Source of the DNA: Phycisphaerae bacterium
GTDB lineage: Bacteria; Planctomycetota; Phycisphaerae; UBA1845; UTPLA1
DNA length: 64,000 nucleotides
Reading direction: 5' to 3'
NCBI GenBank assembly: GCA_035275405.1
Contig: DATEMU010000008.1
Span: 186,001-250,000, forward strand
The position numbers and the translations under genes are program-made. Shown one piece after another: positions 6,403-44,223 of this stretch; the first letter of the stretch is position 1, and every line of letters starts with the position of its first letter. The notes under the pieces were generated by a model. It was not told the origin of the DNA and did no database searches. It saw only the letters and a list, made by a program, of their open reading frames with translations.

Positions 6403-8340
6403 CTATCGGGCACCGGGGGATTCCTCCTCCTTTTCCTCGGGCTCCTTGTCTTCTTCCTCGCCTTCCGAATCTTCCGATTCGTCGGGACTCTCCTCATCAC
6501 CCTCTTCCGCCTCGGAATCCTCCGATTCCTCGTCGGCGCCTTCTTCATCCTCATCGGCGGGCTCACTCGTCGCGGAATCTTCGTCTTCCGCCTCCTCCTC
6601 GTCGGCCTCTTCGCCTTCCTCCTCAGCCTCGTCCTCGCTGGCTTCGTCGCTGGCGCCCTCCTCCTCAGCAGGCGATTCTTCGGCTTCAGCATCCTCCGCC
6701 GCGCCCTCTTCCTCGGACTCCTCGGTTTTCTTCGCGGCGGGCTTGGACTTCGGCTTCACCGGCTCTTCCTTCACACCGGCCAGCCCGCGTCCCCCCACCG
6801 GCCGCGCCGTGCTCTTGCTCGTCAGCCAGTCTTCCTCAAACAGCCACTCCGGCAGCTTGCTTCGCTTCGGGGGCTCCGGCGCCGCCTTGACCTTAGCCGC
6901 GAGCTTCGCCGCTTCGACATCCGCCGCCGCCTTGGCGCGGCGATCGTTCCGCAGGACATCCACCACCTGTTCCGGACTCAGTCTGGGCGCATCCGTCGAG
7001 CGCAAACACGAGATCTCCCCGCCGCTTCCCACCAGATAGACCGATTCATCGGGCTGCGACGCCGCCGCGAACGCGATCATCGACGCGTTGAGCGTCTGCT
7101 CGACGCTGCCCGTCGCCGTGCTGACCCTCAGCACCTCCCCAGACCCCTCCGAAAGCAAATAGGAATACCGGCCAAACTGCAACAGAAACTGCCCGCCCTC
7201 GCGCCGCCGCCAGATCTGCGCGCCGGTCCCGGCTTCCAGCGCGTACAGCCCCTCCTCCGGAATCGATTGGTACACGCGGTCCAGCGCCGCGTGCGGCGAC
7301 GTGAGCAGCGGCGTATCAAACCGCACGCGCCAGCGCCGCTTCCCGATCACCCGATCCAGGCAATACAGCGACCGATCGCTCGACGCGACATAAACCGAGT
7401 CCGGCGTGACCACGACATCGCTGAAGACGGGCGCCTCGGTGTCAAACGTCCAATTCTTGACTTTATCCTCTTTCGTGCAGGAAACGACGCGGCCATCCAG
7501 CCCGGCAAAATACAGGTTGCCGCCCGAGATGACTGGTGTCCCGGCGACCGTGTTGGGCGTCATCAATTGCCAGTATTGGATGCCCCGCAGGATATCGATC
7601 GAGTAAAACCGCTGGTTCGCCGCACCGACGTAAATCCGCTTTTCGTCCGCCACGGCCGCGCAGCTCGCCGCGAACGGCAGCTTCACTTCTTCCAGCGGCA
7701 ATTCCAGATCGCCGACGACGCGATCGCCCGGGCGGACCTTGTCCCCACCCTCCAGCCGCGTCAATTTGCCCATAGATTGGCGGTTGAGCACCGACGATAA
7801 CTTCAGTTCCGCCAGCGCCGACCCCGAGACCTCGCCGACTTCATTCGGCCGATACACTCGCAACGTGTCGCCGACCCGGACGCCATGCGCCTCGCCGACG
7901 CTGATCGTAGACGTATCGTGCTGCACCTCGATCACGACGCCGTTGATCGAGCGCGGCTCCAGCGCCGGCTCACCCGTCCGCCGGTTCAGGACCATCACGG
8001 TCCCACCCGTCGTGAAGAAAACGTAATCCTCGCTATGGGACGGGCCGCGCAGCGCCTGATCGGCTTCGGCCAGCAGGGCCGACCAGCGAATAATCCCTGT
8101 CGGCGCGTGAACCGCGTAGGCTCGATTGGCGTTCGTAATGACGTAAAGGCTGTCGTCGAGCAGGGCGATTCGCGAAACGAGTTCCCCGTTCAGTTTCAGG
8201 TCCACCTCCCAGGCGCGTTGCAGGCCGAACCCGGCCAACGCCCCGGGGGCGACGACATCTCCGCGAACCGCCGCAGCGGAAACCAACAGGCCCGCGCAGC
8301 AAATAACACCCAACGATCTCAGGCTCGCTCTCACAGTCAT
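6403..8340 (-). CDS. Exported PQQ-like beta-propeller protein with internal FlgT-C-like beta domain and acidic tail
   Basis: A 645-residue exported protein. The ATG at 8340 is preferred: GGAGG lies just upstream and a signal peptide follows (SLGVICCAGLLVSAAAVRG). Blade repeats of the PQQ/BamB kind follow, for example YVGAANQRFYSID, LYFAGLDGRVV, VYVASSDRSLYCLDRVIG and GLYALEAGTGAQIW. At residues 133-212 the propeller is interrupted by a small beta domain (VVIEVQHDTSTISVGEAHG ... VRPGDRVVGD). This domain resembles the C-terminal domain of the divergently encoded coiled-coil protein at 8926. The last 160 residues start basic/Pro-rich and become almost only Glu, Asp and Ser. A structural or scaffolding role at the envelope is likely; no enzyme residues are evident. 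Confidence 0.85.
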   Translation of the reverse strand: MTVRASLRSLGVICCAGLLVSAAAVRGDVVAPGALAGFGLQRAWEVDLKLNGELVSRIALLDDSLYVITNANRAYAVHAPTGIIRWSALLAEADQALRGPSHSEDYVFFTTGGTVMVLNRRTGEPALEPRSINGVVIEVQHDTSTISVGEAHGVRVGDTLRVYRPNEVGEVSGSALAELKLSSVLNRQSMGKLTRLEGGDKVRPGDRVVGDLELPLEEVKLPFAASCAAVADEKRIYVGAANQRFYSIDILRGIQYWQLMTPNTVAGTPVISGGNLYFAGLDGRVVSCTKEDKVKNWTFDTEAPVFSDVVVTPDSVYVASSDRSLYCLDRVIGKRRWRVRFDTPLLTSPHAALDRVYQSIPEEGLYALEAGTGAQIWRRREGGQFLLQFGRYSYLLSEGSGEVLRVSTATGSVEQTLNASMIAFAAASQPDESVYLVGSGGEISCLRSTDAPRLSPEQVVDVLRNDRRAKAAADVEAAKLAAKVKAAPEPPKRSKLPEWLFEEDWLTSKSTARPVGGRGLAGVKEEPVKPKSKPAAKKTEESEEEGAAEDAEAEESPAEEEGASDEASEDEAEEEGEEADEEEAEDEDSATSEPADEDEEGADEESEDSEAEEGDEESPDESEDSEGEEEDKEPEEKEEESPGAR

Positions 8341-8925
8341 CCTCGTACCTCCGGGCACATCGCCGCGGCCGCATTCCCCGGCAAGGAAGGCCAACGGTCT
8401 CAGGCAGGCTTGGCTGGCAGGATTAGCGACACGGGACGTATCGCAATGGCTGGCCGATGTCTCATCTAATCTAAGGGACGCGAGGGTCACGAATCAAGCC
8501 AATCGGCCCCCGATCGCACCCGAGAGGCCGCAAACCCCGCCGGGGACCGCCGCGGTCGGAGGCATTGCGGAAGCCGATAACACATCGCCGGTGTCCCGCC
8601 CCGCGCTGGACTCGTGCCGACCCGCCATTACTGGCCCTGCCATGACCGAAATCAGAATTCGCCGCAAAGCGAATTGTCGAGACCCCTACCCCTTGCAAAT
8701 GGCCTGCCACGTGGGGATAATCAAGTAATCCTACCGGGTTTCCGGCTGCGGATTTGCCGGGGCATGGTAGGGCCTCACCAAGACCGCGCGGCGCCGACAA
8801 TCGCCCGCGAGCAAAACAACACGCGCCACGGGCTGCGACATCCCTGCCGGGGGGCGGGTGGAAAGAGCGAGCGTAAGCGAACAAGCCTGCCGGTCCGTAG
8901 CGCGATACAAGCCAGGAGGATTGCC
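8341..8925. other. Divergent intergenic region without a supported gene
   Basis: 585 bases between the divergent PQQ-protein gene and the coiled-coil gene. Small frames cross it on both strands but have no ribosome site, signal or recognisable motif. I see no tRNA or well-known ncRNA signature. It should hold both promoters, but no clear -35/-10 pair was found. Confidence 0.5.
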
Positions 8926-9837
8926 GTGAGCGTCCTGACAAAAGTGTTGGTCACCCTGCTGACCTTCTTATCCATTGCCCTCGCTATGCTCGTGGTCTCG
9001 GCCTTCGCCCAGCAGCAGAACTGGAAGCAGTCTGCGGAAGACTGGCAGACGGCCGCGACCGCCGCGCAGGCCAAGGAGCGGACCGTCGCCGCCAACGCCG
9101 CCCTCGAAAAACAGCGGGCCCTCGATCAGCATCTCGCGGACTCGGCAACCATCAGCAAGCTCAACGGCGATCTGGCCGAAAAGGAAGGCACGATTTCCGA
9201 ACTGAATCGCGCCGTCGCCGACGCCCAGAGCAAACTCAGCATCGAGCAGGGTCAGGCCTCCAGCTTCGGCGAGAGCCTCAAGCTCGTCCAGGCCGATCTC
9301 AGCCGCGAGCGGGAATTCAGCACGAAGCTCGCCCGCCGTAACAGCGAACTCGAACGCGGTAATATCGACCTCACGGACCGCGTCAAGGAACTCACCACCA
9401 ACATCGAAATGGCCAAGGCCCAGGTCCGGGGCCTCCAGCAGCAGATCGCTGCCATGGATAGCGGAGGAGCCGGCGGCTCCAGCACCGGACTGGCCCGTGC
9501 CACGCAGATCCCCAGCGGAGTATCGGTCGAGGCAGGCGTACCCTCCGTCCATGCCCCCGAAGCCGGCGGTCTGGCGATGCCCATCCGGGGCGAGGTGACG
9601 AGCATTCAGGGCGACTTGGCCAGCATCTCGGTCGGCAGTGCCGACGGCGTCGCCCACGGCATGAACTTCCTGATCTACCGGCGGTCCGGTTCGGGTAGCA
9701 GGCCCCAGTACCTGGGCACCCTGAGAATTACCAAGGTCGAAGCCAACCAGTCCGCCGGTCAGATCGAACAGTCCGAAGGCGACATTCGCCCCGGTGACTA
9801 TGCCCGGGACGAGGCCAGCTTCGCAATGAGGGGCTAG
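8926..9837 (+). CDS. MreC-like membrane-anchored coiled-coil protein with C-terminal beta domain
   Basis: The start is GTG 8926, with AGGAGG 7-12 bases upstream. The 303-residue product has one N-terminal membrane helix (LVTLLTFLSIALAMLVVSAFA), a long coiled coil (residues 30-170, rich in Ala/Glu/Lys heptads), a Gly/Ser/Pro linker and a beta domain (residues 200-300: IRGEVTSIQGDLASISVGSA ... IRPGDYARDE). This membrane-coil-beta layout is that of MreC, which links MreB to wall synthesis, but the sequence is not a plain MreC. Its position upstream of mreB supports a cell-shape or envelope role. The beta domain resembles the insert in the PQQ protein encoded divergently. Confidence 0.7.
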   Translation: MSVLTKVLVTLLTFLSIALAMLVVSAFAQQQNWKQSAEDWQTAATAAQAKERTVAANAALEKQRALDQHLADSATISKLNGDLAEKEGTISELNRAVADAQSKLSIEQGQASSFGESLKLVQADLSREREFSTKLARRNSELERGNIDLTDRVKELTTNIEMAKAQVRGLQQQIAAMDSGGAGGSSTGLARATQIPSGVSVEAGVPSVHAPEAGGLAMPIRGEVTSIQGDLASISVGSADGVAHGMNFLIYRRSGSGSRPQYLGTLRITKVEANQSAGQIEQSEGDIRPGDYARDEASFAMRG

Positions 9838-9916
9838 CCGGTCATGTGAGAAGCGGAATCCCTCGTCGCCAAGCTAATTGAACGGCGATGATTACGACCG
9901 ACCAGGAGCGATTACG

Positions 9917-10081
9917 ATGAGCCAGATTCCCGCAGGCCCCGGAGGAGCCCCGTCGCGTCGGCCCTCCAATGACATCTATACCGTCATGGTCGCCGTCGCC
10001 CTTGCGACCGTCGCCGGCACGCTGGCCTTTGCCATCTTTCGCTGCATCGATCTCCTCGGCAAGCCCTTCCCCGGCATCTAG
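9917..10081 (+). CDS. Small single-span membrane protein
   Basis: A 54-residue protein with the start set at ATG 9917 behind AGGAG. A Pro/Gly-rich cytoplasmic head is followed by one membrane helix (VMVAVALATVAGTLAFAIF) and a short tail. It lies between the MreC-like gene and mreB and could be a small partner of that assembly. No family is recognised; the function is unknown. Confidence 0.6.
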   Translation: MSQIPAGPGGAPSRRPSNDIYTVMVAVALATVAGTLAFAIFRCIDLLGKPFPGI

Positions 10082-10326
10082 CCGCGGGTGGCACGGTCTC
10101 GCAGCAGCGAGGCCGTGGCTCTATCGAGCCCAACGCCCAACCTGGGAATTCACAGTAGGCCGCGGCACGTCCAACTTTTCTTGATTTCTGCCCGGTTCGC
10201 TATAGCGTTACGCCAGGCAAACGGTAGAATGCCGCCATCGGCTGAGCGGGACTTGTCTCTTTAAGCCGCTCGAGCGAATGGATTGCGCTTCATCGCGTCG
10301 TGGCATAAAAGAAGGGATTCGCTGCC

Positions 10327-22881: not shown

Positions 22882-25116
22882 GTGCGCATTGGGATAATGC
22901 TTACGGTCTACTTCACGCTTGGAACCGCGGTCATATTAACGTTTGGGCGCGCTTTGAATGCGGGCAGTGAGCCGCTTGAAGAGCCAAAAGGCAAGGCCGA
23001 GATGAACACAACAACAGCCGCATCGCGCCACACCAACCGCCTCATCCACGCGACCAGCCCCTACCTCCTCCAGCACGCCCACAATCCCGTCGACTGGAAT
23101 GAATGGGGGTCCGAGGCGCTGGAGCGGGCGAAGAAAGAAGACAAGCCGATCTTCCTGTCCATCGGCTACTCCGCCTGCCACTGGTGCCATGTCATGGAGC
23201 GCGAGAGCTTCGAGAACGAGGACATTGCGCGGGTCATGAACGAGCACTTCGTCTGCATCAAGGTCGATCGCGAAGAGCGGCCCGACCTCGACGACATTTA
23301 CATGATGGCCACGCAGGTCTTCACCCAATCCGGCGGATGGCCGATGTCGGTCTGGCTCACGCCGGATCAGCGGCCGTTCTTCGCCGGAACCTACTTTCCG
23401 CCCGACAGCCGCTACGGCCGGCCGGGCTTCAAGGACGTGCTGAAATTCCTCGCCACAGCGTGGAAGGAGAAGCGCGACGACGTGACCAAGCAGGCCGATG
23501 GCCTAACCAACGCCGTGCGGCAACTCACGACCGTCGAGCCGGGCACCAACATCGTGCCGTTCGAGGTCCTCGCCCGGACGGCCGGTCAACTCGCTAAGGC
23601 GTTCGACCCCGTCAAGGGCGGGATGAGCGGCGGCGGCACCATCAAATTCCCGCCGTCGATGGCGATGGACCTGATGCTGCGCGTTCACCACCACGCCCAA
23701 TCCGATCCGAAGGCGGCGGAGACCGCCGGCAAGCAGCTACTGGGCCTCGTCGAATTGACGCTCGACAAGATGGCCTACGGCGGGATCTACGACCAGCTCG
23801 GCGGCGGAATCGCGCGTTACTCGACCGACGTGGACTGGCTTGTGCCGCATTTTGAGAAAATGCTCTACGACCAGGCGCTCGTCTCGGACATCTATCTCAA
23901 GGCGTATCAAATGACGAAGAAGCCGCTCTACGCCCGGATCGCCCGCGAGATCTTCGATTACGTCATCGCCGATCTGCAAAGCCCGGAGGGCGGCTACTAC
24001 TCGACGCGCGACGCCGACAGCGAGGGCGTCGAAGGAAAGTTCTATGTTTGGACGCGGCAGGAAGTCGAGCAGCTACTCGGTCCGGACGCCGCCGTCTTTT
24101 GCGATTACTACGACGTGACCAAGGACGGCAACTGGGAGCACCACAACATCCTCAACGTGCAGCGGCCCGCCGAGACTGTCGCCAAGCTGCACAAGATATC
24201 CGTCGACGAACTTGAACAACGGCTTGCCTCCTCACGGATGAAGCTGTTCGACGCCCGTGAAAAACGTGTCAAGCCGCATCGCGATGACAAAATCCTCGCC
24301 GGTTGGAACGGTCTCATGATCGCCAGCATGTCCAAAGGTCATCGCATTTTGGGCGACACTCGATACCGCGACTCGGCGGCGCGGGCCGCGGATTTCGTCC
24401 TCACCAAAATGACCCGCGACGGCCGTCTCCAAAGAACCTACCGCCAGGGCAAGACCCACACGCTCGCCTATCTCGATGATCACGCGTTCATGATTGAAGC
24501 GCTGCTGAATCTGTATGAAACAACCTTCGACCTCAAGTGGCTGAACCAGGCCGTCGCGCTCAATGAACGGGTTATGAAGCACTTCCGCGATCCCGCCGGA
24601 GGGTTCTTCTTTACGGCCGACGACGCGGAGACCGTTCTCGTGCGGGCGAAGGATGCCAGCGACAGTGCCATCCCCTCCGGCAATTCAGTCCAGCTCATGA
24701 ACCTCCTCCGACTCTCGGTCCTGCTCGATCGCAAGGACCTTGCCCAGGAGGCCGAGAAAATGATGACCGTCTTCGGACGACAGCTTGCCGAATCGCCGTT
24801 CCGCTCCGAGCGAATGCTTTCCGCAGTGGACTTTTATTATCGCCGCCCGCGCGAGGTCGCCTTTGTCGCCAGGTCCGCCGACACCGCTGTTCTCGACCAA
24901 ATGATTGACGCGGCCTGGCGAACGTACGCGTCCAGTACCGTGTTCGCCCGGCTTCTGGAGGATGCCCCCGACGCTACTCAAACAGCGAAGTTGATTCCGT
25001 TACTCGAAGGTAAGAAGACCCTCGGCGGAAAGCCGGCCGCATACGTCTGCAAGAATTACGCCTGCCAGGCGCCGACAAGCGACGTTGGAAAGCTCTGCCA
25101 GCAAATCGGCCGATAG
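22882..25116 (+). CDS. DUF255/YyaL-type thioredoxin-fold protein with six-hairpin domain
   Basis: A 744-residue member of the DUF255/spermatogenesis-associated-20 family. The N-terminal thioredoxin-like domain has [21 protein letters not shown] and [19 protein letters not shown] with the CHWC redox pair, then [13 protein letters not shown] and [12 protein letters not shown]. An (alpha/alpha)6 barrel related to N-acylglucosamine epimerases follows ([41 protein letters not shown]-like). The GTG start at 22882 adds a signal-like segment; ATG 23002 would give the usual cytoplasmic form. Its biochemical role is unknown. Confidence 0.9.
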
Positions 25117-29524: not shown

Positions 29525-30505
29525 TTACGGCTCGGTCGGCGGGCAGGGAGGCGGCTCTTTCTTGCCGAACAGCGAGGCGACGATGCCGACGCCAAGGATG
29601 CTGACGATGACCGCCAGCGAAACGATGGTATCAATATGGTAATGGTGCGAGAGGATCATTTTCACGCCGACGAACGCCAGGACAAAGACCAGGCTCGCCT
29701 TGAGATAGCGGAAGTGCCCCATCATGCCGGCCAGGGCGAAGTAGAGCGAGCGCAGCCCCAGAATGGCAAAGACGTTTGAGGTAAAGACCAGAAACGGGTC
29801 CTGAGTAATCGCAAAGATCGCGGGGATGGAATCGACCGCGAAGAGCACGTCGGTGCTCTCCACTACCAGGAGCACAAGAAACATGGGCGTGATGGCCTTC
29901 TTCCCGTCGATGTAGGTGAAGAACTTCTGCTCGTGAAAATCGGATGTCACGGGGTAGAGCCGCCGGGCGAGGCGGACGAGGGGGTTCTTTTCGGGCTCCA
30001 CCTCGTCGGTCTGGGTCAGAAGCATTTTGATAGCCGTCACAATTAGTAGCCCACCGAAGACATAGATGATCCAGTCGAACCGCTGGATGAGCGCCGACCC
30101 GGCCCAGATCATCAGGCCGCGCATGATCAACGCTCCCAGGATGCCCCAGAACAGCACGCGGTGTTGGTACTTGGGAGGGACCCCGAAATACCCGAAGATC
30201 ACTGCGATCACAAAGATGTTGTCGAGGCTCAGAGAGTATTCGATGACCCAGCCGGTGAAGAATTGAATCGCCGCGTCTTTTCCGGTCAGGCGCGATCCCT
30301 CTCCCGTGCCGATGCCCAGCCAGTGGTATTTGTACATGAAGTAGATGAGGCCGTTGAACAATAGCGCGAGCACGATGCACAACGCCGTCCAAGCGAGCGC
30401 TTCGCGCGTGCGGATTACGTGCGCCTTGCGATTAAAGACGCCGAGGTCCAGCGCCAGCATCACCAGGACGAAGACGATGAACCCGATCCAGAGCCAGACG
30501 ACCAT
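29525..30505 (-). CDS. terC: TerC-family membrane protein
   Basis: A 326-residue, nine-span membrane protein. The acidic membrane motifs SLDNIFVIAVIFGYF and VVESTDVLFAVDSIPAIFAIT are diagnostic. TerC/Alx proteins are linked to Mn export during protein folding in the envelope, and to tellurite resistance. A short Pro-rich tail follows. It is encoded 63 bases after the RND pump on the same strand, which suggests a metal-export unit. Confidence 0.93.
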   Translation of the reverse strand: MVVWLWIGFIVFVLVMLALDLGVFNRKAHVIRTREALAWTALCIVLALLFNGLIYFMYKYHWLGIGTGEGSRLTGKDAAIQFFTGWVIEYSLSLDNIFVIAVIFGYFGVPPKYQHRVLFWGILGALIMRGLMIWAGSALIQRFDWIIYVFGGLLIVTAIKMLLTQTDEVEPEKNPLVRLARRLYPVTSDFHEQKFFTYIDGKKAITPMFLVLLVVESTDVLFAVDSIPAIFAITQDPFLVFTSNVFAILGLRSLYFALAGMMGHFRYLKASLVFVLAFVGVKMILSHHYHIDTIVSLAVIVSILGVGIVASLFGKKEPPPCPPTEP

Positions 30506-30568: not shown

Positions 30569-33500
30569 TCAAACACCCGGCGCGATTTCTTCGGCGGGCG
30601 TTGTCTCACGAGTAATGGTCCGAGGTTCACGGCGTCCCCAGACAGCGTAGATGGCGGGCAGGACCAGGAGGGTCAAGATGTTGTCCGAGATGATTCCCCC
30701 GATCACCACCGTCGCTAACGGTCGTTGAACCTCGGCACCCACGCCGGTATTCAGCGCCATGGGGACAAATCCCAGCGCGGCGACGAGCGCGGTCATGAGC
30801 ACGGCCCGGAGGCGGATGAGCCGCGTTTCCAGGATGGCGTCGATGAAGGGAACGCCGGCTGCAATCCGCTGTTTGATGGTTGAAACAAGGACCAGCCCGC
30901 TCAACATCGAGACGCCGGAGACCGCCACAAACCCGACTCCCGCGGCGATCGTGAAATCCATGTTCCGGATCCATAACGCCATGACGCCGCCGAGCGCGGC
31001 AAACGGCGCCCCAGTCAGCACGATCAGGGAATCCCGGATCGTCCCGGTGCTGAAATACAACAGGACGAAGATCGAGACTAATGCGATCGGCACGATAATC
31101 ATCAGCCGGTTCCCGGCCCGTTCCAGGTGCTCGAACTGACCTCCGAACGTCGCGTAATACCCCGGCGGCATGGAAACGTCTTCGGAAATCCGCCGCCGTG
31201 CCTCTTCGACAAAGCCCCCGAGGTCGCGACCGCGGACGTTGCACTGCACCACGATCCGGCGCTTGCCCCACTCGCGCGAAATCGTCGAAGGCCCTTCCAC
31301 TTGGCGAATCTTGGCGAGTTGGGCGAGGGCCAGCCGCTCCCCGGATTCCGTCGGCACCAGGATGCCTCCGACGGATTCGGGATCGTTTCGATACTGATCC
31401 GCCAACTTTACGACAAGGTCGAAGCGGCGCTGTCCCTCGCGGATTTGTCCGACCGTCGTCTGGCCGAGAGCCTCGACGATTTCCAGCACATGATCCGCAG
31501 AAACACCGTACCGGGCGATGGCGTCCTGATCGACGAGTATTTCGAGGACCGGCTGCCCCGTGATTTGTTCGGTGTTGATATCGGCGCTGCCCGGAATCGC
31601 CTCGATAACGGAATGTACCTGACCGGCGACGCGCTTCAATTCCTCGAGATCGTCGCCGAACACTTTGATGCCGACATCCGAACGGATGCCGGCGATCATT
31701 TCATTCATGCGCATCTCGATGGGCTGGGTAAAGACCGCCCGCATTCCCGGCAGCATCGCCAGATCGGCGGCCATGAGATCCGTCAACTCGGCCTGCGTCG
31801 CCGCCTTTTTCCATTGTTCGCGCGGCTTCAGCGAAAGAAAGACGTCCGTCAGCTCCAGCCCCATGGGGTCCGTCGCGACCTGGGGCATGCCCGTGCGGCT
31901 CCAGACGTGCCATACCTCATCAGGATACGAGTCGAGGAGGAGCTTTTCGATCCGCGTGCTGTAGCGCAAGGATTCCTCCAGCGAGACGCCCGCCAGTCGA
32001 ATGGTATTGACCGTGATCGCCTCTTCATACAACCGCGGAATGAACGATCGGCCGAGTTGGGTGGCAAGGTAGGCTCCGAGCGCGATCATGAGCGCCCCCG
32101 CACCGATCGTTAGCCCACGATGCCGCAGCGACATGGCCACAAACGGCCGATGTATCCAGTGAGCCGCGCGGACAATGATGTTCTCCCGCTCCGACACTTT
32201 CTTGGGCATCAACAGGCTGCACAGCACCGGCGTCAGCGTGAGCGAGAAGATCAGGGAACTCGCCAGGGCGAAGACGACGGTCAGCGCCATCGGGCGGAAG
32301 AGCTTTCCCTCCACTCCTTCCAACAGCAGGATCGGCAGATAGACGACCATAATGATCATCTCCCCGAACATCGTCGGTCGGCGGACCTCCACCGCCGCAT
32401 CGCGAATCACGTCGATCAAAGGTCGCTTCCCGCCGCGATCCCGCTCCTGACCCACGCGACGAACGCTGTTTTCGACGATGATGACGGAGCTATCGACGAC
32501 GAGCCCGAAGTCAATCGCCCCGAGGCTGAGCAGGCTGGCGGCGATCCCGAATTGAAGCATCGCGCTGAAGGAGAACAGCATCGCCAGCGGAATCGCCAGC
32601 GCGACGATAATCCCAGTCCGCAAGCTCCCGAGGAACGCGAAGAGTACGGCAACGACAAGCAGAGCGCCCTCAAACAGGTTCTTCTTGACCGTGTGGATGA
32701 CACGGTCGACCAGCTCGGTGCGCTTGTACATGATCTGCACGTCGACATTGTCCGGCAGCGTCTTGCGCACCTCGTCCAGTCGCGCTTCCAGCCGCCGCGT
32801 CACCTCATGGCTGTTCTCCCCCATGAGCATGAACCCGAGCCCGAGCACCACTTCGCCCCCGCCCTGCGCCGTCACGCCGCCCCGCCGAATCTCGAACCCC
32901 TCCCGCACGCCCGCGACGTCGTCGATGCGAATGGGCACGCCGTCATGCGCCTCGATCACGATATTCCCGATCTCCGCGAGGTTGGTGGTGAACGCGACCC
33001 CGTGAACGAGACTGGCCTCGCCCGACCGAACGATGTATCCGCCCCCGACCGCCGTATTGTTCCGCCGCAGTGCCTCCACCACGTCGTCGACAGTCAAGGA
33101 ATACTTAATTAGCCGGACCGGATCGATCAGCGTCTGGAATTGTTTGCGCTGGCCGCCCCACGTGTTGACTTCTGCGACGCCGCGGACGCTTAACAGTTGC
33201 GGCCGAATCGTCCAGTCGTGGATCGTCGTCAGCTCGGTCAGACTGGCCGGGCTTTCGCCCTTGCCCACGACGATATAGTGAAAAACCTCCCCCAAGCCCG
33301 TCGCCACCGGCCCCATCTCGGGCGGATCAATCCCGGCCGGCAGTTTGGCCGATCCGAGCTGCTCGTTGATCCGTTGACGGGCGAAGTAGATATCCGTGCC
33401 GTCTTCAAACGTCGCGGTAATCTGCGAGAGGCCGAATTTGGAGATCGAACGCATCTCCACAAGGCGCGGAATTCCTCCGATCACCGCCTCGACCGGCGCG

Positions 33501-33697
33501 GTAATCAGGCGTTCGATCTCGACCGGCGCCAGCGACGGCGCGACCGTATTGATCTGCACCTGCACCGGCGTCGTATCCGGAAATGCGTCGATCTCGAGGT
33601 GCGACAGCGAATAGGCCCCGCAACCAACAATGACCGCCGTAAACAGGATGACCAGAAAGCGATGATGCAGCGACCAGCCGATGATCCAGTTCAACAT
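30569..33697 (-). CDS. czcA: CzcA/CusA-type heavy-metal RND efflux pump
   Basis: The 1042-residue inner-membrane proton/metal antiporter of a tripartite efflux system. Family marks include SHLEIDAFPDTTPVQVQI, SLGAIDFGLVVDSSVIIVEN with the TM4 Asp, and QPIEMRMNEMIAGIRSDVGI, which is closer to CzcA (Zn/Co/Cd) than to CusA (Cu). AGGA precedes the ATG. It follows the adaptor and a Cys-rich module gene. No outer-membrane TolC-type partner is encoded in the window. Confidence 0.94.
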   Translation of the reverse strand: MLNWIIGWSLHHRFLVILFTAVIVGCGAYSLSHLEIDAFPDTTPVQVQINTVAPSLAPVEIERLITAPVEAVIGGIPRLVEMRSISKFGLSQITATFEDGTDIYFARQRINEQLGSAKLPAGIDPPEMGPVATGLGEVFHYIVVGKGESPASLTELTTIHDWTIRPQLLSVRGVAEVNTWGGQRKQFQTLIDPVRLIKYSLTVDDVVEALRRNNTAVGGGYIVRSGEASLVHGVAFTTNLAEIGNIVIEAHDGVPIRIDDVAGVREGFEIRRGGVTAQGGGEVVLGLGFMLMGENSHEVTRRLEARLDEVRKTLPDNVDVQIMYKRTELVDRVIHTVKKNLFEGALLVVAVLFAFLGSLRTGIIVALAIPLAMLFSFSAMLQFGIAASLLSLGAIDFGLVVDSSVIIVENSVRRVGQERDRGGKRPLIDVIRDAAVEVRRPTMFGEMIIMVVYLPILLLEGVEGKLFRPMALTVVFALASSLIFSLTLTPVLCSLLMPKKVSERENIIVRAAHWIHRPFVAMSLRHRGLTIGAGALMIALGAYLATQLGRSFIPRLYEEAITVNTIRLAGVSLEESLRYSTRIEKLLLDSYPDEVWHVWSRTGMPQVATDPMGLELTDVFLSLKPREQWKKAATQAELTDLMAADLAMLPGMRAVFTQPIEMRMNEMIAGIRSDVGIKVFGDDLEELKRVAGQVHSVIEAIPGSADINTEQITGQPVLEILVDQDAIARYGVSADHVLEIVEALGQTTVGQIREGQRRFDLVVKLADQYRNDPESVGGILVPTESGERLALAQLAKIRQVEGPSTISREWGKRRIVVQCNVRGRDLGGFVEEARRRISEDVSMPPGYYATFGGQFEHLERAGNRLMIIVPIALVSIFVLLYFSTGTIRDSLIVLTGAPFAALGGVMALWIRNMDFTIAAGVGFVAVSGVSMLSGLVLVSTIKQRIAAGVPFIDAILETRLIRLRAVLMTALVAALGFVPMALNTGVGAEVQRPLATVVIGGIISDNILTLLVLPAIYAVWGRREPRTITRETTPAEEIAPGV

Positions 33698-33740: not shown

Positions 33741-34103
33741 TCACGACTTCCCATGCTCGCCAGGCTTGACCTTCTTGGCCAGTTCCGGATGACAGACGAA
33801 ACACTGCGAATCCGGCGCACTGTGCTTCGCGCACCAATCCCCCTTGGCCCGGAACGCCGACTTCAGGTAGGGCCGACACTGGTAACACAGCGCCTCGGCC
33901 ACGCCGTGCTCGCCGCAAAAGCCGTCGCTCTCAATCAAGCTCGGCGTGCAGAATGGGCACTTGTCCTTTTTGATCTCGTGCGGACACCCCGTGGCGTCTA
34001 CCGCCGGCTTGGCAGCGTCGTCTTTCTTCTGCTCGCACGTCGATGATGCGAGCAACAGCATTCCGGCCAGCGCGGCCGCCCACCATTTGGAATCTCGTTT
34101 CAT
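33741..34103 (-). CDS. Free-standing Cys/His-rich lipoprotein module
   Basis: A 120-residue product from ATG 34103; GAGAGGT lies just before it. The signal WAAALAGMLLLASSTC suggests a lipoprotein. The rest has CPxxI and a three-fold motif: CPFCTPSL, CGEHGVAEALCYQCRPYL, GDWCAKHSAPDSQCFVCHPEL. Nearly the same module, aligned without gaps over 60 residues, forms the N-terminus of the adaptor encoded next upstream. Four CxxC/CxxxH-like pairs suggest a Zn- or Cu-binding carrier that feeds the pump. Confidence 0.8.
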   Translation of the reverse strand: MKRDSKWWAAALAGMLLLASSTCEQKKDDAAKPAVDATGCPHEIKKDKCPFCTPSLIESDGFCGEHGVAEALCYQCRPYLKSAFRAKGDWCAKHSAPDSQCFVCHPELAKKVKPGEHGKS

Positions 34104-34124
34104 GACTACCTCTCTCAAAAAATG

Positions 34125-35654
34125 CTACTTCGCGAGATGATCGACCTCGCAACATCCCGCCCCGATATTTCCCTTCATCAGTTCCGTCTTTAGCAGGAAG
34201 CTGCCCTGCGTCACGATCGTCGCTCCCGGCTCCACGCCTTCCAGCACCTCGTAGTAGTCCTCCGCCGCGTAGCCCAATCGTAGGGGATGCGGCACGAAGA
34301 GCTGATCGTTCTGACGTACAAAGACCACGTTGCAGCACCCATCCCATTGCACGGCCGACTTGGGCACGACGACCCGATCGTCGCCCTGGCGTATCGTGAC
34401 CAGCGCCTGGCCGAACATGTTCGCCCGCAAACGACCGTCCGGATTCTCCAACTCCGCCCGCGCCTTCAGCGTCCGCGTCCGCGCGTCCAGTTGCGTGCTG
34501 ATCCACGTGATCGATCCGGCGAACGATTCCCCGCGCACTCCGCCGACCGTCAGAATCACGGGCTGCCCGAGGCGAATCAGCGCCAAGTCGCTTTCATAGA
34601 CGTCGAGCAGCGCCCACATCCGGCTCGTATCGGCGATCGCAAAGAGCGGTCGCATCGTATCGACCGCCTCGCCCACGACGGCCGACCGTTCGACGACGAT
34701 CCCGTCAAACGGCGCGCGCATCGCCAGCAATCCCTCCGTCTCGCTGTCCTGCGCCAATCCCTTGATCTCGTCCTCCTTCAGTCCCAGGCTCTTGACCTTC
34801 TGCCGCGCGGTCGCCAGGGCCAGCCGGCTCTCCTCCAGCTTCGCCTCGGCCTCCAAATCCTCCTTCGCGGCGGAAATGCCCTGCTTGACGAGGTCGTGTG
34901 TCCGCTCGTGGTTCTTGTCCCACAGGTTCAGCCGTGCCACGGCCTGCAAATACTCCGCTGTCGCCGACGCAAGCTCCGCCGATTCAATGACCGCTAGGAC
35001 ATCCCCGGCCTTCACCGCATCGCCGAGGTCTTTTTCGACCTCGCGGACGATCCCCGAAGCCCGCGGCGTCACGCGGGCATAGTGATTGCCGTCGTAGGCG
35101 ACCGCGGCGTTACAGGCCACCGTGGCCGTCAGCGGGCGGCGCTCTACTTCTTCAAACTCCAGCCCGGCCTGTTTGGCGATCCCGGGCGAGTTGAAACGCA
35201 CCCGCAGGGAATTGTTCTTGCACGTGACCGACGGCGGGCGCGTGCTTCGCGGCTGCTCATCCGTCGACGCGACGAGCTCAATCTGCTTCGGCGGCATCGC
35301 GGCGGTGGGCATGGCATTGGCCAACTCCGGGTTACAGAGGACGCACTGCGATTCCGGCAGGTCATGACCGGCGCACCAGTCGTTCTCGATCTTGAACGCC
35401 GCCACCAGAAACGGCCGGCAACGGCTGCATAGCGCCTCCGGCACGCCATGCTCCCCGCACTCGCCCTGCTCTTTGATGATGACGGGATTGCAAAAAGGAC
35501 ATTGGTCCGGCGTCAGACCGTGCTTTGCGCATGCCCCTTGCGTAGCCGGTGCAGATGTCGCCGCCGGCGCTCCCGCGCGATCGCAGCCCCATACAAGCAC
35601 GCCCAACCCGATAAACGGGATTCCGAGCACGCGGATAGACCTTTTACGCAGCAT
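34125..35654 (-). CDS. czcB: CzcB-like RND adaptor with N-terminal Cys/His-rich module
   Basis: A 509-residue periplasmic adaptor (membrane fusion protein). GGAGAG precedes ATG 35654; the signal ends in VLVWGC, so it is lipid-anchored. Residues 45-110 are the Cys/His module (CPFCNPVI, CGEHGVPEALCSRCRPFL, NDWCAGHDLPESQCVLC). Then come the adaptor parts: a lipoyl half (RVTPRASGIVREVEKDLGD), a coiled-coil hairpin (residues 270-330), LLAMRAPFDGIVVE and beta-barrel TSRMWALLDVYESDL. The terminal Gly-Cys-Cys-Glu-Val-Asp-His could also bind metal. Confidence 0.9.
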   Translation of the reverse strand: MLRKRSIRVLGIPFIGLGVLVWGCDRAGAPAATSAPATQGACAKHGLTPDQCPFCNPVIIKEQGECGEHGVPEALCSRCRPFLVAAFKIENDWCAGHDLPESQCVLCNPELANAMPTAAMPPKQIELVASTDEQPRSTRPPSVTCKNNSLRVRFNSPGIAKQAGLEFEEVERRPLTATVACNAAVAYDGNHYARVTPRASGIVREVEKDLGDAVKAGDVLAVIESAELASATAEYLQAVARLNLWDKNHERTHDLVKQGISAAKEDLEAEAKLEESRLALATARQKVKSLGLKEDEIKGLAQDSETEGLLAMRAPFDGIVVERSAVVGEAVDTMRPLFAIADTSRMWALLDVYESDLALIRLGQPVILTVGGVRGESFAGSITWISTQLDARTRTLKARAELENPDGRLRANMFGQALVTIRQGDDRVVVPKSAVQWDGCCNVVFVRQNDQLFVPHPLRLGYAAEDYYEVLEGVEPGATIVTQGSFLLKTELMKGNIGAGCCEVDHLAK

Positions 35655-35740: not shown

Positions 35741-36154
35741 TCAGATTTGCAGGGGTAGCGCCGCCGATGCTAGTCCGAAGCGATCCCGAAGCGTCTCTCG
35801 GAATCCATCGGTACTGAGGGATGTGATGGGATTTGTTGCCGCGCACGAATCGACGGGCGGCAGGGCTATGCACCAACTCGGCTCAAGGGAGGGTCGCTGC
35901 GGCCCGGCGTCGAGCAGCGTAAGCGGTGCACAGGTGATGACACAGGTCGGACACTCATTTTCCGGCGAGGGGTCGGAACACGGGCATTCGCAAGGGCCCG
36001 CCTGCTTTTCGTCGCCGCAGCCGCCGTCGCAATCCTCGTCGGCAAGCTCGCAACTCGTCACCGGCGCGCAGCAGGGAATCAAACCACCGGGGCACAGAAG
36101 TGGTGTGCCCAGGATCGCCCAGATCGATGCCAGCGCCGAGACGTAGACCCGCAT
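35741..36154 (-). CDS. Cys-rich secreted protein at the head of the metal-efflux run
   Basis: A 137-residue protein with signal VSALASIWAILGTPLLCPGG. It holds 15 or more Cys, clustered in residues 28-80 (CCAPVTSCELADEDCDGGCG, CECPC, CPTCVITC). The tail has no motif. It is 86 bases upstream of the adaptor gene on the same strand. A role as periplasmic metal buffer or sensor is inference. A TAGAAT hexamer seven bases before the ATG suggests leaderless transcription. Confidence 0.7.
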   Translation of the reverse strand: MRVYVSALASIWAILGTPLLCPGGLIPCCAPVTSCELADEDCDGGCGDEKQAGPCECPCSDPSPENECPTCVITCAPLTLLDAGPQRPSLEPSWCIALPPVDSCAATNPITSLSTDGFRETLRDRFGLASAALPLQI

Positions 36155-41452: not shown

Positions 41453-42304
41453 TCAACTCCGTCGCACGCGCCGAACGACTCCCCCACCCGCCAGCGCCAG
41501 CAGATAAACCGCCCCCGCCAGCACGATCGTCGTCGCCCCCGTCGGAAGACTGGGGCCGTAGCTGATCGCCAGACCGCCGGTCGTCAGAACGACGCTCAGC
41601 AGTGCGGAGAGGCCCATCATCTCCAGGAGCGTCCGCGAGAACTGCCCCGCGACGGCGACCGGAAGCGTGAGCAGCGCGATGACCATGATGATGCCGACGA
41701 CCTTGATAAGAACCACGACCGTCAGGGCCGTCAGGCAGAGCAGGAGCAGGTAGTAGAACTCGACGCGAATCCCCCGCAGCCGGGCGAACTCCTCGTCGAA
41801 GCAGACGGCGAGGAACTTGTTGTAAAACAAGAGGCCCATGAGCACGACGACGATGTCGAGCCCGGCGATGAGCCAGAGGTCCTGGCCGGAGACCATGAGG
41901 ATATTGCCGAAGAGATAGCTCATCAGGTCTTCGCTGTAGCCCGGTGTCTTGGCGATGAAGAGGATGCCGATGGCCATGCCGATCGCCCAGATCGCCCCGA
42001 TGACCGTGTCCTCGCGCTGTTTCGCGCGGAGCGTGACCCAGCCGATGATCAACGCTGCGACGAGCGCGGCGACGAGGGCCCCGGCGAGTGGATGACAGAA
42101 CTGCCAGCCGTACACGGCCCGGCAATAGCCCGCCGCACCCATGCCCCCAAGGACGCAGTGGGAGATGCTCGCGGCGATGTACGTAATCCGCCGCGTCACC
42201 ACATAGGTCCCGACGATCCCGCAGGCGACACTGGTCAGCACGCCCGTGACCAGCGCGAAGCGGACGAAATCGTGCTTGCCGACGGCCTCGAAGAACTCGC
42301 CCAT
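41453..42304 (-). CDS. znuB: Zinc/manganese ABC importer permease
   Basis: A 283-residue permease of the ABC-3 family (ZnuB/MntB). Eight or nine spans; LTSVACGIVGTYVVTRRITYIAASISHCVLGG is the family N-terminus in pieces, and GIIMVIALLTLPVAVAG is the conserved coupling region. The stop of the ATPase and this ATG share one base (TGATG). It is the last gene of the Zn operon. Confidence 0.93.
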   Translation of the reverse strand: MGEFFEAVGKHDFVRFALVTGVLTSVACGIVGTYVVTRRITYIAASISHCVLGGMGAAGYCRAVYGWQFCHPLAGALVAALVAALIIGWVTLRAKQREDTVIGAIWAIGMAIGILFIAKTPGYSEDLMSYLFGNILMVSGQDLWLIAGLDIVVVLMGLLFYNKFLAVCFDEEFARLRGIRVEFYYLLLLCLTALTVVVLIKVVGIIMVIALLTLPVAVAGQFSRTLLEMMGLSALLSVVLTTGGLAISYGPSLPTGATTIVLAGAVYLLALAGGGVVRRVRRS

Positions 42305-43122
42305 CAGGAGTGGCCCCCTTCGTGGCGGCAATCGTGATCGTGGTGGACCATATGCACATCGCGGCCGTACAGCGCGACGATCGCGTCGCCGCCCAGTTCG
42401 GTCGCGCAGTGCACCGAAACGGTACGGTTCACGCACACGACCGTTCGGACCAGCTTGGAGACGAATCCCACGTCGTGCGACACCAGTATGACGGTCAGGC
42501 GCTCGCTAAGATGGCGCAGGAGTTCGTAAAAATCGTCCTGGATACCGATGTCGAGGTTGGAAGTGGGTTCATCGAGCAGGAGCAGGTCCGGCTCGCAGGC
42601 CAGCGCACGGGCAATGAGCACGCGCTGGCGTTGGCCGCCGGACAGCATGGAAAACGGCCGGCGGCCCATGTCGGCGAGTCCGACCTCCGCCAGGACGCGC
42701 TGGGCCACGCGCCGATCCGCGGCACCATACGGCCCGAAGATTCGTCCCATGCCCAGGCGTCCCATGAGAACGACGTCCAGCACGCTGACCGGGAACTGCG
42801 GATCGAGCTGCGCGTATTGCGGCATGTACCCGACGCGCGGTCGCGCCCGTTCGGGCGTCACGCCGAAGACGCGAAGCGTCCCGCGCGACGGGGTGAGCAA
42901 ACCGAGAATCAACTTGAGCAGCGTCGTCTTCCCCCCGGCATTCGGTCCCACGATGGACACGAAGTCCCTTTCGGCGATACGGATCGTCACGTCCTTCAGG
43001 ACGGGTTCCCGCTCGTACGCAAAAGAGACGTCCTCGAACTCGATGATCGATCGCCCGTTCGCCCGGCTCGCCGGCGAGGCGGAGTCCGATGTGGGCCGTT
43101 CTGTCGCGGGGACCTTCATCAT
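42304..43122 (-). CDS. znuC: Zinc ABC importer ATPase
   Basis: A 272-residue ATPase. Walker A GPNAGGKTTLL (Ala-Gly in place of Gly-Ala), signature LSGGQRQRVLIARAL, Walker B LLLLDEPTSNLD, His switch LVSHDVGFV. The C-terminal HMVHHDHDCRHEGGHS is His-rich and may bind Zn. The start ATGATG overlaps the znuA stop. Preceded by the solute-binding gene. Confidence 0.94.
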   Translation of the reverse strand: MMKVPATERPTSDSASPASRANGRSIIEFEDVSFAYEREPVLKDVTIRIAERDFVSIVGPNAGGKTTLLKLILGLLTPSRGTLRVFGVTPERARPRVGYMPQYAQLDPQFPVSVLDVVLMGRLGMGRIFGPYGAADRRVAQRVLAEVGLADMGRRPFSMLSGGQRQRVLIARALACEPDLLLLDEPTSNLDIGIQDDFYELLRHLSERLTVILVSHDVGFVSKLVRTVVCVNRTVSVHCATELGGDAIVALYGRDVHMVHHDHDCRHEGGHS

Positions 43123-44057
43123 TGCGCTTGTGTCACCCGATCTGTCGCCTGGCCGGTCCCGGTGCGCAGCGACGCCGCGATCTTCTCGGCCATGCCGACG
43201 TAATTGTTCAAATAGTCGCGGGCCAGCGGATCGATCGTCACCACCTCGGCCCCAATCTCCGCCGCGACGGTGCGGGCCGCGCTCGACGAGAATTGCGGCT
43301 GCACGAAGATGGCCCGTGCGCCGGTCTGCCGGGCCTGTTCGATCATCGCCGCCAGTTGCCGCCCGCCCGGCTCCTTGCCGCCTTCCTCGACGGCGACCTG
43401 CTTCAAGCCATAGGCGTCCCCGAAGTAACCAAAGGTCGGGTGAAAGACAAAAAACTCGCGGCCCTTGAATGGGGCCAGCGCCGCCGCGGCCCGCTGATCC
43501 GCCGCATCCAGGTCGGCCTGAAACGCCCGCAGGTTCTTCTCGTATTCGTCGGCATTATCGGGGTCCAGTCGCGCCAGCGCGGCGGCGATCGTCGCGGCCT
43601 GCGCCTTCACCAGCTTCGCGTCCAGCCAGATGTGCGGGTCCATTCCTCCTTCACCATGATCATGACCCTCGTGTCCGCAATGATCGGTCGCGTGACGCAT
43701 CGCGACCCCCGCGCGCGTATCCACCACGACAAGGTCGGGCCGCGTCGAACGGACCTTTTCCTCCAACGTGCGCTCGAACGGAACGCCAATCGTGAAAAAC
43801 ACCTGCGCCTCCGAAAGGTCGGCGATCTGCCGCGGGGTCGGCTCGTAGCTGTGATAGGACTGACCGGTACCGACGAGGACCTGCACGGCCACGCGCGATC
43901 CGCCCACGCGCTCGACGAAATACGCCTGCGGCAGGATCGTCACCACGGCCCTCACGACATCGATTGCCTGCACCGGGGCCATTTCCCGACGACAGCCGCC
44001 CGCGTGAGCGAGCAACAGGGCCAGACTTACCAATCCAGATATCCCGCGCATGACCAT
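43119..44057 (-). CDS. znuA: Zinc-binding lipoprotein of the ABC importer
   Basis: A 312-residue cluster A-I solute-binding protein. The start is ATG 44057 (or 44051), giving the lipoprotein signal LVSLALLLAHAGGC; the longer frame would translate the operator. The His-rich loop HATDHCGHEGHDHGEGGMDPH is typical of ZnuA, and metal ligands lie in FVFHPTFGYFGDAYGL and FVQPQFSS. It scavenges Zn (or Mn) outside the membrane. A perfect Zur-like palindrome lies just upstream. Confidence 0.93.
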   Translation of the reverse strand: MVMRGISGLVSLALLLAHAGGCRREMAPVQAIDVVRAVVTILPQAYFVERVGGSRVAVQVLVGTGQSYHSYEPTPRQIADLSEAQVFFTIGVPFERTLEEKVRSTRPDLVVVDTRAGVAMRHATDHCGHEGHDHGEGGMDPHIWLDAKLVKAQAATIAAALARLDPDNADEYEKNLRAFQADLDAADQRAAAALAPFKGREFFVFHPTFGYFGDAYGLKQVAVEEGGKEPGGRQLAAMIEQARQTGARAIFVQPQFSSSAARTVAAEIGAEVVTIDPLARDYLNNYVGMAEKIAASLRTGTGQATDRVTQAQ

Positions 44058-44069
44058 CCCATCCCGGTA

Positions 44070-44086
44070 GTAATACATTGTATTAC
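44070..44086. promoter_or_regulatory. Zur/Fur-type operator upstream of znuACB
   Basis: GTAATACATTGTATTAC is a perfect 8-1-8 palindrome, 13 bases before the znuA start. Its AT content stands out. It overlaps the probable -10 region (TATTAC), so a bound repressor would block transcription. Zur is the likely binder because the operon carries Zn importer genes. Confidence 0.8.
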
Positions 44087-44223
44087 AACCATCGTCGGCC
44101 GCCAACCGCGGCGATCGGGGGTAAAAACACTGAAACGGGCCGGCCATGGCCAGACCCGTTTCGGTGACCGAATGCAAAGGAGAGGTAGAGGTTTGTACGC
44201 TTAAGCGCCGCGGCGGTTCGCGC

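Follow-up and report, generated by a model that had tools for sequence, protein, structure and literature searches.

A heavy-metal RND efflux locus in the window, the whole 64,000-nucleotide stretch of Phycisphaerae DNA analyzed here, encodes a Cys/His-rich module twice, once in a small free-standing protein and once at the N-terminus of the periplasmic adaptor. The repeats of this module, a GCC motif, and a C-terminal GAG[C/U]-x-C tail on the adaptor are best read as the ligands of a metal relay into a CzcA-type pump, with selenocysteine (Sec) in the tail of many relatives; the probability assigned to this reading is roughly 0.7. The shared module, the invariance of its ligands, its linkage to metal-RND genes, the age of the split between free and fused forms, the GAGC tail, and the UGA/SECIS evidence were all obtained computationally and are described below.

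Four genes on the minus strand of the window are transcribed in the order Cys-rich exported protein, adaptor, 120-aa protein, and pump (Table 1). The gaps between the four coding sequences, with stop codons counted, are 86, 21, and 43 bases, and because they are so short the genes look like a single operon. The pump is identified as a heavy-metal efflux (HME)-type RND protein by its TIGR00914 score, and the core of the adaptor is an HlyD_D23 domain (PF16576, 182 bits against a cut-off of 30). The adaptor body also matches TIGR01730, and its closest solved relative, both by sequence and by predicted fold, is the zinc adaptor ZneB (3lnn); against the CzcB/NccB model it scored below threshold (TIGR00999, 185 versus 319 bits). 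The Cys pair of its W-x-G-C-C motif was invariant across seven aligned adaptors (alignment A3) and is missing in many more distant ones. The exported 120-aa protein carries a non-canonical lipobox, LASSTC; a simple lipobox pattern was matched by about two-thirds of 34 relatives, and in some the N-terminus is instead a simple membrane anchor or a signal peptide. No CzcC-like outer-membrane ORF was found between positions 24001 and 44000 of the window, but many related loci do have one.

Table 1. Features of the window locus and, in the last row, of relatives with TGA at the adaptor tail (window positions unless a locus is named).
Feature	Position	Strand	Evidence or remark
CusA/CzcA-family heavy-metal RND pump	30569..33697	-	TIGR00914 1151 bits, cut-off 701
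Free-standing Cys/His-repeat protein, 120 aa, probable lipoprotein	33741..34103	-	ATG at 34103; no Pfam/NCBIfam/PDB match
Module inside free protein, residues 40-109, three C-x(1-2)-H-x6-C-x2-C repeats	33777..33986	-	
Heavy-metal RND periplasmic adaptor, CzcB/ZneB type, 509 aa, module at N-terminus	34125..35654	-	PF16576 1.3e-53
Adaptor C-terminal GAGCCEVDHLAK tail and stop	34125..34163	-	Cys501 is the first Cys of the motif; TGA, probably Sec, in relatives
WDGCCNVVFV motif of adaptor (Cys440-Cys441), conserved	34317..34346	-	Alignment of adaptors
Module inside adaptor, residues 42-112, three repeats	35319..35531	-	
Cys-rich exported protein, 137 aa, upstream of adaptor	35741..36154	-	
TGA at conserved adaptor tail Cys, with in-frame tail and GGUC hairpin	L009:2477-2479; L063 3′ end of 7488-10316 (-); L080:4047-4049; L179-L218 adaptor 3′ ends		

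Several neighboring genes were also noted. Directly downstream of the pump gene lies a TerC-like membrane protein, judged by sequence (29525-30505, minus strand), and ORFs read as ZnuABC-type zinc/manganese ABC importer genes (membrane, ATPase, and solute-binding components; 41453-44177) would place metal uptake functions a few kb away from the efflux locus. A small Cys-rich exported ORF often lies immediately 5′ of module-type adaptors, as it does in the window and at L006:526-942, L073-L085, and L195-L237. The sequences of these upstream ORFs are highly diverse between loci, and no Pfam model was matched by the two that were examined; the upstream protein is a possible third metal-binding component.

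An earlier note on this DNA had read the Cys/His-rich stretches of the two proteins as one and the same module, free and fused, and the comparison bears this out. Both ORFs are real, and their modules align without gaps with 39 of 68 residues identical (57%), a likeness that at a BLASTP E-value of 6e-30 is not due to chance. The three repeats of each copy are spaced about 24-28 residues apart, and the window genome (5.29 Mb) contains these two copies only. Searches of Pfam, NCBIfam, and PDB sequences returned no match to the module. Across 182 repeats, the four ligand positions were conserved as C in 181, H in 182, C in 182, and C in 180, with the other columns mostly variable; these figures are upper bounds, as the repeats were chosen by profile at E<0.01, which favors good matches. 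The invariant C-H-C-C ligands, taken with the genomic context, point to metal capture, and the module is probably metal-binding.

In the AF2 model of the small protein (nine sequences), the module is compact and confident (pLDDT 90-96) and is formed of short helices with no barrel, and no fold match to it was found among the PDB or viral structure libraries. Confidence in the module was moderate (57-67) in the AF2 model of the adaptor (seven sequences).

The CHP-type, CxxCH-like ends of the repeats might alternatively be covalent haem c sites, which would make the proteins small cytochromes. CxxCH does end some repeats, and weak, sub-threshold matches to magnetochrome and cytochrome c7 models were obtained; however, a c-type cytochrome assignment was rejected because the haem motif is not conserved, with His following CxxC in just 56 of 224 repeats and Asn, Asp, and Arg common at that position, even within one protein. 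The invariant His sits instead between the first and second Cys, and the haem reading is scarcely credible.

The free/fused pair was proposed in the earlier note to be a recent duplication, which the adjacency of the copies and their 57% identity might suggest. The free module of the window, however, shares 87% identity with its free counterpart at locus L003, as against the 57% shared with its own fused partner, and of 32 comparisons, 29 placed the free module nearer to another locus's free module than to its own fused partner. These values contradict the proposal, and a recent duplication inside the window genome has next to no chance of being correct. At L003 the free module is present and the adaptor lacks repeats, which argues that gain and loss of the module forms is old. 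The comparisons as a whole indicate a pair that is old and has been kept or lost piecemeal.

To describe the distribution of the module, a genome was counted when it matched the module profile (A1) at E 1e-8 or better. In total, 43 of 294 planctomycete genomes matched. Among 398 genomes of Pseudomonadota, the module was present in one, a Nevskiales MAG, and the contig in question could be mis-binned or transferred. None of the viral contigs searched contained the module, and within a plasmid collection it was found on just two plasmids, both planctomycete. By these searches the module is specific to the phylum Planctomycetota, apart from the single Pseudomonadota genome. Plasmid pK2D_1 carries czcC, czcB, czcA, and a small repeat gene beside cadA, czcD, and a gene for an HMA-domain protein.

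All profile-matched loci were pooled with others from an earlier search, giving 52 loci after duplicate removal, the window included. In every one of the 52, a gene for a heavy-metal RND adaptor or pump is present, and the small number of loci that lack a pump gene are interrupted by a contig end. A module found mainly outside metal-efflux loci, which would have spoken against a role in metal export, was thus not seen in the search across genomes, all fetched loci being of the metal-RND type. The proposal that the two forms are a functional pair for the metal pump gained support from the same loci, since the linkage is conserved and free and fused forms often occur together. Three architectures were distinguished, namely free plus fused (as in the window), fused alone, and free alone. 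The common gene orders are small protein-adaptor-pump or adaptor-pump-small protein, whereas the window has adaptor-small protein-pump. The adaptors contain between one and nine repeats. At L004, a free protein (L004:5890-6615) has two tandem three-repeat modules, six repeats in all, and the adaptor of that locus retains one repeat. Tandem adaptor-like genes occur at L179-L189, L219, and L220, with a repeat-less adaptor directly upstream of the module-bearing one.

The variable number of repeats bears on whether they serve as structural zinc knuckles, holding the adaptor assembly together or docking the lipoprotein, with no transfer path for the exported metal. The resemblance of the invariant C-H-C-C sites to structural zinc sites and the confident, compact AF2 module would suit such a role, but a range from one to nine repeats per adaptor, together with the loss of free or fused forms in some loci, fits a titratable binding array better, and a purely structural role is considered unlikely.

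At the other end of the adaptor, all 45 module adaptors of the first locus set with a complete 3′ end have a G-x-G-C tail (42, with Cys) or its TGA equivalent (three). The tail is also borne by four adaptors of the same type without detected repeats (L003, L004, L005, and L094), and it was found in none of eight ordinary module-free adaptors from the same loci. The window adaptor ends in GAGCCEVDHLAK, with Cys and not Sec. In L009, L063, and L080, the frame halts at GAG with a TGA, followed by ADCKH-stop, ADDE-stop, and AD-stop, respectively. When 398 genomes from the class to which L009 belongs were searched for read-through, TGA was recovered at the tail Cys in about 40 adaptor genes from 37 genomes; in 35 distinct genes it lies precisely at G[A/E]G, and in four it follows GKG, GDG, or GLG; the repeat module was present in 37 of 39 TGA-adaptor loci. 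The usual TGA-type tails are U-x-C-x-H, U-A-D-C-K-H, and U-L-C-E-Q, and the Cys homologs often have C-x-C. Past the UGA, the same residues are encoded in different ways (LCEQ and GCGH each in four codings, ADHNH in three).

A hairpin with a GGUC loop was found 17-24 bases past the UGA in 30 of the 35 TGA copies, and in the remaining five a strong hairpin with a related loop (GUU or GUGC context) occupies that position. None of 19 non-TGA homologs has the GGUC hairpin (Fisher p = 2e-10 against the 30 of 35, a value that is overstated because related genomes are not independent). Among 19 distinct hairpins, six of seven stem pairs showed compensatory change, and doubly changed cells numbered 28 versus 6.2 in shuffles, a count reached in 0 of 500; because GGUC and a stem of four or more pairs were required when the hairpins were chosen, the inner pairs are partly selected. 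The published bacterial SECIS model specifies a loop of 3-9 nt starting with G, a stem of 4-16 bp, and a distance of 16-37 nt from the UGA (PMC13188914). The 33 GGUC hairpins, with stems of 5-9 bp and loops 17-24 nt after the UGA, fall within these limits. Rfam returned no match to the hairpins at gathering thresholds, and single-hairpin shuffle z-scores were weak (-0.8 to -2); the case for a SECIS element rests on comparison and not on single-sequence energy. Applied to the DNA of 392 planctomycete genomes, a SECIS-plus-UGA pattern picked up G154 and G160; its other matches were taken as chance because none lies at a known adaptor.

In some loci the hairpin immediately precedes the start of the pump gene, which would be compatible with translation ending at the UGA and with regulation of the downstream gene by the GGUC hairpin. 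However, the frame runs on to a second stop through a tail that resembles the Cys homologs and varies synonymously, the offset from hairpin to UGA is nearly fixed, and non-TGA homologs with the same downstream gene lack the GGUC hairpin. Termination at the UGA is thus very improbable, and the TGA in these adaptor relatives probably encodes selenocysteine; gene callers would truncate adaptors of this type, the UGA being taken as a stop.

The machinery for Sec was examined in three of the 37 TGA genomes. That of L009 (G694) encodes SelA, SelB, and tRNA-Sec, all above cut-offs. G154 encodes SelA and tRNA-Sec above cut-offs, with no full SelB seen in a genome that is 76% complete, and in G160, a Sec candidate that is 61% complete, neither SelA nor a convincing SelB or tRNA-Sec was seen. 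The window genome (G000) itself encodes tRNA-Sec, SelB, and SelA (C15:456054-456147, C12:185003-188301), although its module adaptor has Cys, and judging from these genes the host probably decodes selenocysteine.

In the proposed relay, each C-x2-H-x6-C-x2-C repeat would be a small metal-binding knuckle, likely holding one ion. The free copy, membrane-anchored or periplasmic, would bind metal and deliver it to the adaptor's own N-terminal copy of the module, from which it would move along the adaptor body to the CzcA-type pump. A second group of soft-metal ligands in the adaptor would come from the GCC motif and from GAG[C/U]-x-C at the C-terminus, a tail whose [C/U] position would in many relatives be a selenocysteine inserted by means of the UGA and the SECIS hairpin. 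Metal binding, the identity of the metal, which way it is transferred, and what the tail does are inferred from the features described above. A divalent substrate of the Zn/Cd/Co type is favored, a preference drawn from the similarity to ZneB and the neighborhood on pK2D_1. Because some loci have the free or the fused form alone, the hand-over from free to fused would not be universal, and since the periplasm can oxidize Cys, disulfides are possible in the module. The further reading of a selenium-dependent pump, in which the adaptor GAG-U-x-C and the repeat modules of adaptor and free lipoprotein together act as a soft-metal relay into the CzcA-type pump, is held to be reasonably likely, if somewhat less so than the relay as first stated.

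Thiol or selenol redox chemistry, for instance soft-metal reduction or detoxification, could be the main action in place of a metal relay. Tails of the Cys-Cys or Sec-x-Cys kind typically occur in redox as well as soft-metal proteins, and a redox function is assumed for most known selenoproteins (PMC13188914). Against this, no oxidoreductase fold was seen in the locus, the tail belongs to a transport adaptor, and the repeats retain a His ligand that is typical of metal sites; redox chemistry as the main action is improbable, slightly more so than a structural role for the repeats.

The prokaryotic selenoprotein inventory of May 2026 comprises 119 families, and a search of its full text brought up no RND adaptor, HlyD, or membrane-fusion protein (PMC13188914). 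Neither the deep-Sep paper nor a 2022 review includes a Sec-bearing RND adaptor, and a model specific to these adaptors is lacking from NCBIfam release 20. The open-licence literature yielded no report of Sec in a metal RND adaptor, with an earlier description elsewhere being possible, and nothing relevant on Cys-rich CzcB of planctomycetes. If the reading proposed here is correct, no selenoprotein of a tripartite efflux system would have been described before these adaptors, and the module would be a metal chaperone that resembles neither CusF nor HMBD.

Most detailed work on metal RND pumps concerns Proteobacteria, in which the metal is handled by CusF, methionine clusters, or HMBD. The planctomycete phylum appears to do the job of CusF or HMBD with an undescribed repeat domain, both free and fused. 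The Sec tail is the stronger surprise, as it is recurrent, has its own SECIS signal, and is lost from ordinary gene calls, and it bears on why a cell would pay for selenium in a metal exporter.

Among known systems, the adaptor body resembles ZneB/CzcB in its matches to PF16576, TIGR01730, and ZneB itself, but window-type adaptors add the N-terminal repeats, the GCC motif, and the GAGC/GAGU tail. HMBD (PF19335), found in CusB-like adaptors and P-type ATPases, shares with the window module the order C-x2-H followed by C-x2-C, a small size, and occurrence in both short and long proteins; its His-Cys spacing is longer, however, and its CPMHP/CGM signature is missing from the module. HMBD was rejected as a family assignment, with no PF19335 hit at E 1 for either protein and an hhalign alignment of 13 columns around CxxC. 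In the Cus system, the free chaperone CusF hands metal to the N-terminus of the CusB adaptor, and in SilB of Cupriavidus metallidurans a CusF-like domain is fused to the adaptor (PMC4446572). Here, too, one putative metal-binding domain is found both free and adaptor-fused beside an HME pump; however, CusF is a beta-barrel with Met-rich sites and is C-terminal in SilB, whereas the window module consists of short N-terminal C-H-C-C repeats. Membership in the CusF/SilB family was also rejected, as there was no PDB sequence match and the AF2 model has short helices, no barrel, and no fold match. The free/fused plan is that of CusF/SilB, carried out with a different and apparently unrelated domain. 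Selenoproteins that handle metal include the Cu/Zn efflux transporter SO_0444 with UxC, a mercuric transport protein, and SaoC (PMC13188914), and the TGA-type adaptors would resemble them in having Sec for Cys at a probable metal-ligand site of an export-related protein, in this case as U-x-C.
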